Below are positions 19,163 to 23,606 of a DNA stretch of 64,000 nt, piece after piece. Position numbers and translations under genes: made by a program. Source of the DNA: Ceratodon purpureus (taxonomy: Eukaryota > Streptophyta > Bryopsida > Pseudoditrichales > Ditrichaceae); contig CM026421.1 in assembly GCA_014871385.1 (NCBI GenBank), positions 10,351,644 to 10,415,643 on the forward strand, given 5' to 3'. The notes under the pieces are model-generated. The model ran no database searches, was not told the origin of the DNA, and was given only the letters and a program-made list of their open reading frames with translations. Position 1 is the first letter of the stretch. Each line of letters opens with the position of its first letter.

Positions 19163-22100
19163 ATGTCCGTGGACATTTCGCCACGTAAACGATCACAAGC
19201 ATTCAACTTCTTCGGTTGGTTTGGAAGAGCAAGCCAGAGAGCCGTGCAAATTATGAGAAGCTTTGTTTCGTGTTCATCTCTTCAGTCAGATGACAGTTTT
19301 GGCGAGTACTTGTCTAGAATTCTGGGAGAACCTAATTCAATGGTCTTGCAAGATAGCCGAGATGCGTCGTTATCAGCTTGCTCTGTAGCGCGGGATGCAT
19401 GCTCATCCTTCAAGTCAGACGACAGTTTTTCCCAGTACTTCGCCAATGCCTTGAGAGATCCTAGTCCACTATGTTTACGAGGGGGTGTAGACCAAACTCC
19501 ATCAACTGGCTCTTTGCCGCTCAAGGCATGCTCATCCTCCAAGTCAGACGACAGTTTTGCCGAGTACTTGGCCAAAGCAACAAGAGGGCACGATGGAACA
19601 CGAGGGCACAACACATTAGATTTTCGGGAAAGCCGAGACGGGACTGATCTATCAACCTGCTCTGTACCGCGAGACGCATGCTCATCCCCCAAGTCAGATG
19701 CCAGCCATGCTCCCCAGTACTTGGGCTGTACTAAAAGGGTTGTTGGTAACCGAAGCAGGAACTTTTCAACCTTTCAGGATCCCACCGGGGTTAGCAGAAG
19801 CTTATCAAACTGCTCTGTCCCAGGAGAAGCAACTCCGCCAGGTTACGTTACTCCGCCAGATGTGTGGTCGCATAGAAATGGTAGAAAGTCGCCTGTAGGT
19901 TTCGTTGGGAAACTGGACGCGAACACGAGCACTCGCCTTGCTGCCATCTGCAAGTCTCAGAAATCACAAATCTTTGAAAGACCACAACCCGTGACTACTG
20001 AGGTATGCTACTCTCCTCGTGTCCCAAATCATGTCTTAGGCATTATCAAGGGAGATTCTTCTTCAGATGAGGGTTTCTGGTATGACGTCCTCCAAAGCCC
20101 ACATTCTTCGATCTTGAGAGATTTATACATGTGCAGTTGTGCATCTAGTTTCATTTTGGTCTACGATTAGTTAATGAATTCCAATGATCGGTAATTGGCT
20201 TATGTATCACGGGTTATTTGACAATGATCTTTGCAGGGGTCAGACTCAGGCGTTACTTCCACATACCTGAAGCTAGATCAATGCCAGTGCATTGGAGAAA
20301 ATATGATTTCAAGTGTTTCTTCTGCACAGCCCAAGCTGCCTGCCAATTTCTTCGACCTACCTGCGAAACTGCGGCTTCGAGCTGCCAAGCAGGTTAACCA
20401 GCTATGGTTCGTATATATATACATTTCAGAATAATAATCTTTGAACTTTTTTTCCAGGAGATTGAAGAGCCCACTGGGGCGTTACTGATCTTGCATGTTG
20501 TCTTCCATTCAGAGTTCTTGAAGTTCGTAAGTGACTTTCTTTTTGGGGCTGATGGAACAGTTTCTCGAAGAATTTGAGTATAGGCTGAATCCGATCTCCA
20601 ACTTCCAAGTTAAGAAGCTGCGGCCCCTTTCAGGTCTCATGGCAACTGCAAAATTGGTACATCAATCTGACCTTCGACAAGTCACTCCAAAAATTTCGGT
20701 TTTCCTTGTAGACCAGATATCAGACGCTGCACACTGCTAGGAAAGCTTGGGAATCTGTGTGGGATGTCTACACGAAGATTTCTTGCGTAATCTTTGCTTA
20801 GACTCGTTGTGTTGAGTTCAATTAGCACATCAGTGGATGAGATACGGTTGTCTGACTATATGTAGAATGTAACTCGATCCTTACGATTGCGAAGCAGATT
20901 ATTTACAAGCCCGAGCCGATCAAGTGTGTGGAGGCCGTGTTTATTGCGCTCTATCTCACTGTAGGTTTATCCAATCTTGCTATATTTTACCGATTGATAC
21001 GCAAACTTAAAGCCAAAGTTGAATCTAACCTAGACCATAGTTGAAAATCAAGAAACAACTGTCTGATTCTTTTGTTGTAGGCCGGCCTTCAATCAGTGGA
21101 GCGCATACCGCTTGGATTCAAAACACAGTTCGCAAATCAGGTGCAGATTATTACAGTTTCCACGCGACTTTCATCATATCTGACATTTTTTCGCGCTTGT
21201 CATGTCACATAATCTTGCACACTTCAACATCTTTCACTGCCTTTGACATATGGTGTACTTGGGGTAAGAGATTTTACAGGTGTTTCAGCACGTTGTCCTG
21301 CTGGTGCAGTATAAGGGCAAGTATGGAGCATTTGGAATAAGCAGAAGTCCTGATCTTATGAACAAGGATTTATGTTTTGACAGGTAATCGGGAACATTTC
21401 CTGTAGACTTTAATCATATAGTTTCTTAGGTCTCAATCTTCTGATTCTGGGCTTTTGAGCAAATTATTAGTGTGCCAGACATTACAACATTAAAAGCTGT
21501 TTTATAACGGCAAGGCATTGAGCAAAGGGCTACCGAAAATAATTGTCCTTTATAGTTAGTTTCAGCTCTAAAGTGAGTGTATTTAATGACATTATTCTTT
21601 GGTTGGTTTAAAAGTTTCTTCCTCCAAAGGTTTTAGCTTGGAGAGTCAAGAAATATATTGAAGAAATTGTAACACAAAAACATTGTTGAGCATTTCAGCA
21701 TGTCGAGTATTATTGAAAACTTCAAGACAGCGTACGAGGAAACTGACCATACAATACTCAATCTTCAAATTGGTCTCCCGGTAAGTAGATTGTGCTCCTA
21801 GTCGTTAAATGATTGCTACCACTAAGCTGCAAAGTACTTGAGTAGACATTTAACATTTGCCAAGCGTTTACTCTGGATGCCTTGTGGTCACTTCGAGTGC
21901 TCCCCTCTTCTTTTGGGTGGTAAACTCATTCTGACTCAGTCGATTCTTTTCTAAAAGTATAGACTAGCAAACAGTCATAACTTACTTTGACATCTTCTGG
22001 CAGGTAGAACATGATGTCATGTCTGGAAATTTCGTTTGTTGGGAACACCTGCTCCTCTACCCATCCGTCCAACCATGGCCAGAGGTAATTGACAGTAGAC

Positions 22101-23606
22101 TGCCTAGTATGTTCTTGTTCCAATAAACTGTGGACAATAATCTCACGTGTTGAGCATTGTTTTCCGAACAGTTAGAAATAAGATCTGACAAATAAAGTTT
22201 GCAACAGTGTGTTGCAGCAATCGAGAATCATGCATTACGTATGAAGCACCTATGGAATGTGTAAGTCAATTTTAACCTCCTCGTAGTCCACAAACACATA
22301 ACAATTGCTGGAAACTTAGTGTTCATCTTCACTTTCTCAGGTCACAATACGAATCGATCCTGTGATATGGCATCACGAGCCTCTCAAAAGTTTCGAAAAT
22401 GCCTCACTTTTTCCCATATGAATCAATTGCAATATTTTTCGGCACTTCAGTTTTTAGGTCTCAAGAAATGCAAGTTTGATGTGGCATGGACTGCGAATCA
22501 AAGTCACTAGCCGTAACTTAGTAGGTGGTACCATCTTCATCTGCAGATGGGTGATTTCTGGGAGAGGATCTGACCCTACAAGAACGCCATCGAAGAGCCT
22601 GAGGAAACCCCCAGTCAATGATGGCCCCAAAAGTGTCAAGCTAACGATCAGGAAGCCGTCGACCTTGCAGAAGAACTCTGTGAAACAGTCTGAGGAGCAT
22701 AACACACCGGCGTGCCAGCAAACCATCAGCTACAGGGTTCCTTATCCACCAACGAGGATGACTAGAAATGACTGTCATCATTTCCGTGGGCAACAAAATG
22801 CTTCAGTTTATTCAGGCTCAACCTCCAACAGGTCTTTGTTGAAAGGCTACTTCGACCCCAAAGAGTCCACAGGTCCTTGGAAATATACCCAGTGTCCCAA
22901 ACACCACGACCAAGGAACTATGTGCACCGACAGCGTGCACGAGAACGAAGAGAATTCTGTGACCTATGCAGGTGAATGTGGGTCACTTGAACAAAATCCA
23001 TGGGAGGTATGTAAGAATTTTGACTGCAGGAGCTCCTTGTGCAAAGCAGATTCGAAGCGGCTTGGTGATAATCCCAAGGGTAGGGGTTCAGGACCTCTTT
23101 ACAGCATGGTCCTCAAGAGATCCCGAGCTGGGTGATGCATCATCATTTGAATCGCTAAATACTGAACAAAAAACAGAGTCCATGCTAACCCAATTGAAAC
23201 AGGTGGTTTCTCCAAGAACCAACATTTGTCTCTCAGACTCAGAATCTGAAGAAAGAAATAGTAGCTTTTTAGGCAACATTAGGTGCAACATCTTGTCATT
23301 TGACTGGTAAAATTTCTTGTTCCATTCCTCTGTGTCAGTCCAGCTCAGTACAATTGGTTTCTCTTGCTACAAATTGTGTCTAGTGAGCTCGTTCATGAAC
23401 ACTCGGGTCAGGATGCGAAGACTGTTTTAGCACATGCCGATTTCACATGCCCACTCCAGTACGGAAACTGGAACTACTTCGGGAATTGCAGTGGTCGAAT
23501 TATGCAGGAGACATGCGAAATCGTAATTGAATCTCCCAAGCACGTGAAGACTGCAGGTTCCAGATTGAATCATGCTTCATTTCTTAAGGAACATTCTTTG
23601 GCTTGA
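19163..23606 (+). CDS. VASH-like: Vasohibin-type tubulin carboxypeptidase with long N- and C-terminal extensions
   Basis: Predicted cysteine carboxypeptidase that removes the C-terminal tyrosine of alpha-tubulin (family role). Exons: 19163-20002, 20237-20392, 20561-20656, 20898-20960, 21081-21140, 21280-21383, 21699-21780, 22004-22084, 22208-22260, 22547-23006, 23092-23306 and 23384-23606. All phases join, giving 810 residues. The core (about residues 315-530) follows animal vasohibins block by block: FQVKKLRPLSGLM, PIKCVEAVFIALYLT, VERIPLGFKTQF, HVVLLVQYKGKYGAFGISRS, SIIENFKTAYEE and SGRGSDPTRTPSK. The non-canonical triad is intact as C374, H409 and S426. Its spacings of 35 and 17 are exactly those of human VASH1 (C169/H204/S221). 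Outside the core are a Ser-rich N-terminal repeat region and a roughly 280-residue tail, both unfamiliar. An in-frame TGA precedes the ATG. Less certain are the exon 1 donor (20,003), the exon 4 acceptor and the last two introns. Animal enzymes need the partner SVBP, which is not visible here. Confidence 0.88.
19271..19730 (+). repeat. Four imperfect Ser/Asp-rich coding repeats in vasohibin exon 1
   Basis: Exon 1 encodes four copies of a motif of the form (A)CSSxKSDDSFxxYLxxxxR, starting at residues C37, C80, C123 and C173. Spacings are 43, 43 and 50 residues. Each is preceded, except the first, by a C-S-V/L-x-R-D/K-like segment. The fourth copy is degenerate (KSDASHAPQYL). The repeats are seen at both DNA and protein level. 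Function is unknown; low-complexity, phosphorylatable sequence is a reasonable guess. Confidence 0.8.

Follow-up and report, generated by a model that had tools for sequence, protein, structure and literature searches.

Human VASH1 and VASH2, which act with SVBP, are tubulinyl-Tyr carboxypeptidases of the vasohibin family (PF14822). In a 2016 study, Sanchez-Pulido and Ponting reported members of this family over a range that extends from green algae as far as Physcomitrella (PMC4866520). In Trypanosoma, detyrosination has been attributed to a vasohibin (VASH) as the sole enzyme (PMC12714142), and a database entry names a Marchantia protein 'tubulinyl-Tyr carboxypeptidase'. A rice paper of 2024 still denies plant homologues of animal tubulin carboxypeptidases (PMC11720312). 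In one open-access library we came across no paper that examines the function of a plant vasohibin, and a search for vasohibin together with bryophytes gave PMC4866520 as the only relevant paper. Here we analyze a stretch of 64,000 nucleotides (C1:10351644-10415643, hereafter the window) from the 29.0-Mb contig C1 of the 362-Mb Ceratodon purpureus assembly, which carries a ten-exon vasohibin gene on the + strand (window positions 19163-23135). The initial annotation placed such a gene in a land plant, and the host is indeed a moss; its view of the family as one known from animals is too narrow, an animals-only range being rejected in view of the green-algal, Physcomitrella, Marchantia and Trypanosoma members. 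From the sequence, we consider it probable that the moss locus encodes a vasohibin that removes the C-terminal Tyr of alpha-tubulin, as an SVBP-independent cysteine carboxypeptidase of transglutaminase-like fold.

The evidence that the window protein belongs to the vasohibin family is strong. When the core exons were joined, the only Pfam family matched was PF14822 (E 1.4e-48), and the whole ten-exon model reached E 2.1e-50 and 171.7 bits against a curated cut-off of 24, covering profile positions 48-225 of 245. A PDB sequence search of the core, taking matches up to E 1, returned 19 distinct sequences, and every one was VASH1 or VASH2 (E 2.6e-36 to 2.4e-32). That the exons encode a vasohibin core is thus confirmed at the sequence level, the match being far beyond chance. 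The catalytic Cys, His, Ser and Leu stand at their VASH1 places, with Cys-His and His-Ser spacings of 35 and 17 that equal those of VASH1, and the predicted structure has the VASH fold. In this regard, the vasohibin-like core and the triad spacings claimed initially were upheld, as was the family assignment in the profile search and structure prediction proposed as checks. The residues that hold the tubulin tail, namely the K145/K146/R148 loop, K168 and R222, are all conserved, and every catalytic residue is likewise kept in P. patens.

These features would fit a mechanism in which the Cys, activated by the His, attacks the last peptide bond of alpha-tubulin. The His would be oriented by Ser221 or by the backbone of Leu226, while the acidic tubulin tail would be held by the loop, K168 and R222. 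A candidate substrate is encoded in the same genome. The tubulin C-terminal family has 27 matches there. By tail motif, 18 of them are alpha, from 16 distinct loci, seven are beta, and two are not recognised as either; a C-terminal Tyr ends 15 of the 16 recognised alpha-tubulin loci, and the final residue of all seven recognised beta tails is V, A or C. The exception among the alpha loci (L044, C6:29401679-29401933) lies on contig C6, is alpha-tubulin-like, has one stop within the match and a tail that continues to ...LLIRN without a terminal Tyr, and may represent a damaged copy or else an exon that is split. An active vasohibin-fold cysteine peptidase whose main plant substrate is something other than alpha-tubulin seems unlikely to us, given the conserved tail-binding residues and the presence of acidic, Tyr-ended tails.

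The prediction of SVBP independence comes from the part of the protein that precedes the core. In VASH1, SVBP is contacted by W74, W78, V81, V91, I95 and L101 on helices alpha1/alpha2, and also by Q133, H136, T137 and F141, among others. The TWERMW helix that carries W74 and W78 was looked for in the window protein and not found, the region ahead of the core is disordered in the predicted structure, and the positions of Q133, H136, T137 and F141 read E, L, N and N. The full QYNHTG motif is present in none of the 14 land-plant rows that cover this stretch (10 named and 4 assigned to land plants in the analysis). QYNHT is kept by Micromonas and Asterochloris, and QYNHTG by rows P0029 and P0030. 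Because alpha1/alpha2 are unrecognisable and few SVBP contacts are left, our reasoned prediction is that the window protein folds and acts independently of SVBP; with the binding helices and most contacts missing, an SVBP homologue may be unnecessary for the moss enzyme. Alternatively, the protein could be a detyrosinase that depends on a small helical protein, whether an SVBP that has diverged or a plant protein unrelated to it. Some land-plant rows do retain single contacts: P0014 and P0018 have Q133, Sphagnum has H136 and T137, and several have T137. A short, intron-split and diverged SVBP could also escape a family search; however, the missing helix, the disorder ahead of the core and the four changed contacts make this alternative improbable in our view.

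Some observations weigh against an SVBP-independent alpha-tubulin detyrosinase. R223 of VASH1 is replaced by Ser in the moss protein, and in published work R222 and R223 were mutated jointly. VASH2 lacking alpha1/alpha2 is soluble without SVBP and SVBP adds little to it, but its detyrosination efficiency is only 20.6% (PMC6642083); by analogy with this strong fall in activity, the plant enzyme might have little activity or rely on a different partner. The genome also carries two paralogues, discussed below, that have lost the catalytic Cys. The search for SVBP itself (PF15674) gave no match in the moss genome and none in 14 control genomes either, and is hence uninformative.

A profile search with ten sequences scored the 7994 candidates with the most words in common and gave at least 95 matches. 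The organism is readable in the names of 21 of these 95, on which the distribution counts rest, so that seed-plant members may still exist among the others. The 21 comprise twelve mosses, four liverworts, Selaginella moellendorffii (P0023), the fern Adiantum capillus-veneris (P0025) and one match each from Klebsormidium, Micromonas and what we take, from its JGI code, to be Asterochloris; none is from a seed plant, flowering plants included. The Selaginella and Adiantum proteins match PF14822 at E 9.6e-56 and 1.6e-43, the latter being encoded on a 139-Mb contig with its 5' end missing. If these records are sound, the range published for the family needs correction.

In a tree of 53 of the 98 rows, drawn with a midpoint root, the window gene nests in the moss clade (97/97) within land plants (100/100), where its species predicts; Klebsormidium comes next (99/98), liverworts form their own group (100/99), and the Selaginella and Adiantum proteins group with four other rows (99/86) inside land plants. 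The closest named relative outside Ceratodon among our searches is P. patens LOC112279716, which agrees at 144 of 173 core positions (100/99 in the tree). Transfer from an animal and contamination are rejected, given this placement and the 29.0-Mb contig in which the gene sits. The phylogeny proposed as a check thus favors what appears from its sequence to be an intact, vertically inherited moss vasohibin.

The ten-exon model starts at the ATG at 19163 and gives 707 residues. Exon 1 (19163-20002, or from 19158 if a 5' exon is used) encodes a long N-terminal extension, predicted to be disordered, with KSDDSF..Y-type repeats that by pattern match number three in the Ceratodon database protein P0009 and four in P. 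patens P0010 (window 19158-20002). The vasohibin domain begins in exon 2 (20237-20392; LPANFFDLPAKLRLRAAKQ). Exon 3 (20561-20656) encodes the equivalents of Tyr134 and of K145/K146/R148 (FEYR, VKKLRPL), exon 4 (20898-20960) the catalytic Cys (PIKC), and exon 6 (21280-21383) the catalytic His (FQHVV) together with Ser, Arg and Leu (GISRSPDL). Exons 5 (21081-21140), 7 (21699-21780) and 8 (22004-22084) complete the core up to its C-terminal helix in exon 9 (22208-22260). Exon 10 (22547-23135) encodes a long C-terminal tail, predicted to be disordered and common to homologue P0004, and the stop codon at 23133-23135. All these exons lie on the + strand, and the long disordered tails may target the enzyme.

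The initial annotation had given the gene 12 exons, 810 residues and an end at 23606. This extent was rejected, since P0004 and P0009 place the last exon at 22547-23135, with the stop at 23133-23135; the stretch beyond 23135, up to 23606, is 3' flank, outside the protein. The database copy P0009 (723 residues, 'hypothetical protein M758_1G120200', Ceratodon purpureus) is 100% identical over the part searched, and 706 of the 707 residues of our model match it. It carries an additional first coding exon (18970-19012, + strand; MRQEDGDLDFLCVT..., donor GTTAAG) spliced to 19158, which our model lacks. The window protein is a real and well-conserved moss vasohibin, an ordinary member of its family already in databases under other names.

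P0014 searched against the moss genome gave 19 exon matches, from which six gene-like vasohibin loci were recognized: the window gene and loci at C1:22.13 Mb, C3:4.74 Mb, C4:19.9 Mb, C13:7.25 Mb and C6:51.52 Mb, the window gene being the one with a full gene model. Two paralogues, L016 (C1:22131500-22136000) and L018 (C4:19893000-19898500), have PIKS for PIKC and SP for SR, that is, Pro for Arg222, and P. patens P0017 has PIKA and an N instead of the Ser; in VASH1, C169S and C169A are disruptive. The Cys-less paralogues group with the window clade (100/99). Because P0015 (from C4) and P0017 share 141 of the 173 core positions, close to the 144 shared by the Cys-bearing window gene and its P. 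patens orthologue, the Cys-less members look like kept pseudoenzymes and not debris, which raises the question of a non-catalytic role.

Of nine pieces of P0014 (KC19_VG152000), five match the Cys-bearing copy on C6 (L015, C6:51515500-51521500) at 100% and four overrun exon ends. C6 has 110,524,308 bases, equal to the contig bearing KC19_VG152000, and by this V-type locus tag we read the copy as lying on the V chromosome, whose presence makes a gametophyte male (PMC9261002). The V contig also holds broken pieces of a Cys-less paralogue (L020, C6:10678500-10683000), one piece occurring twice in opposite directions. Two further Cys-bearing loci, on C3 (L017) and C13 (L019), are of the same type as P. 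patens P0020. A chromosome 3 database protein, P0062 (180 residues), lacks the His and Ser parts, and the exon that encodes them lies downstream in the genome. One could suspect that the window gene itself is decaying or silent, its open frames being what is left of a family in the course of being lost from mosses, as the Cys-less paralogues and the broken pieces on the V contig might suggest. We regard this as very improbable for a gene with ten open exons, nine in-frame GT-AG introns, near identity to a database protein and catalytic residues all kept in P. patens, and we infer that it is expressed and active.

Taken together, these findings make the window gene, judged from sequence, a good candidate for an unsolved plant enzyme, within a moss family that is more interesting still. 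The lineages in which the family was found make flagellate cells. This distribution and the V-linked paralogue make a tie to flagellate sperm plausible. More tentatively, and with considerable doubt, we suggest that an SVBP-free vasohibin might persist in those land plants whose sperm swim (bryophytes, lycophytes and ferns), where it would detyrosinate stable microtubules of sperm cells, that seed plants might have lost it, and that the moss family might have grown into active enzymes, a male-chromosome copy and conserved members lacking the Cys, which may act as readers of tubulin tails or as regulators of the active enzymes. The window gene and its relatives provide concrete detyrosination-enzyme candidates in genetically tractable plants, and an SVBP-free vasohibin, if true, would reveal what SVBP contributes in animals. 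A moss vasohibin leaves detyrosination in flowering plants unexplained.

Elsewhere in the window, the downstream neighbour (24032-25482, + strand) is alpha/beta-hydrolase-like by eye (VLLVHGFGASIGHWR), with two frames that have no Pfam match. A 6.7-kb inverted repeat of 99.1% identity (27696-34444 and 49582-56294), each arm with tRNA-Val, -Glu and -Phe and one tRNA-Gln, is either a recent inverted duplication or an assembly effect. A third Val-Glu-Phe tRNA cluster lies at 35171-35573 (405-base direct repeat, 98%).

With respect to the known systems, the moss protein differs from human VASH1 and VASH2 in the absence of the alpha1/alpha2 helices, the four changed SVBP contacts that follow, the Ser at R223 and the long disordered N- and C-terminal tails. 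The Physcomitrella vasohibin of the 2016 report and that of Marchantia belong to the same family; the window protein has N-terminal repeats of its own, in common with P. patens. The bacterial cysteine protease CPR-C4, a homodimer with an unidentified substrate, shares 13-14% identity in a structural alignment. Trypanosoma brucei VASH, compared here by its description (PMC12714142), is likewise a non-animal vasohibin, but acts on both alpha- and beta-tubulin, whereas the recognised moss beta tails carry no terminal Tyr.
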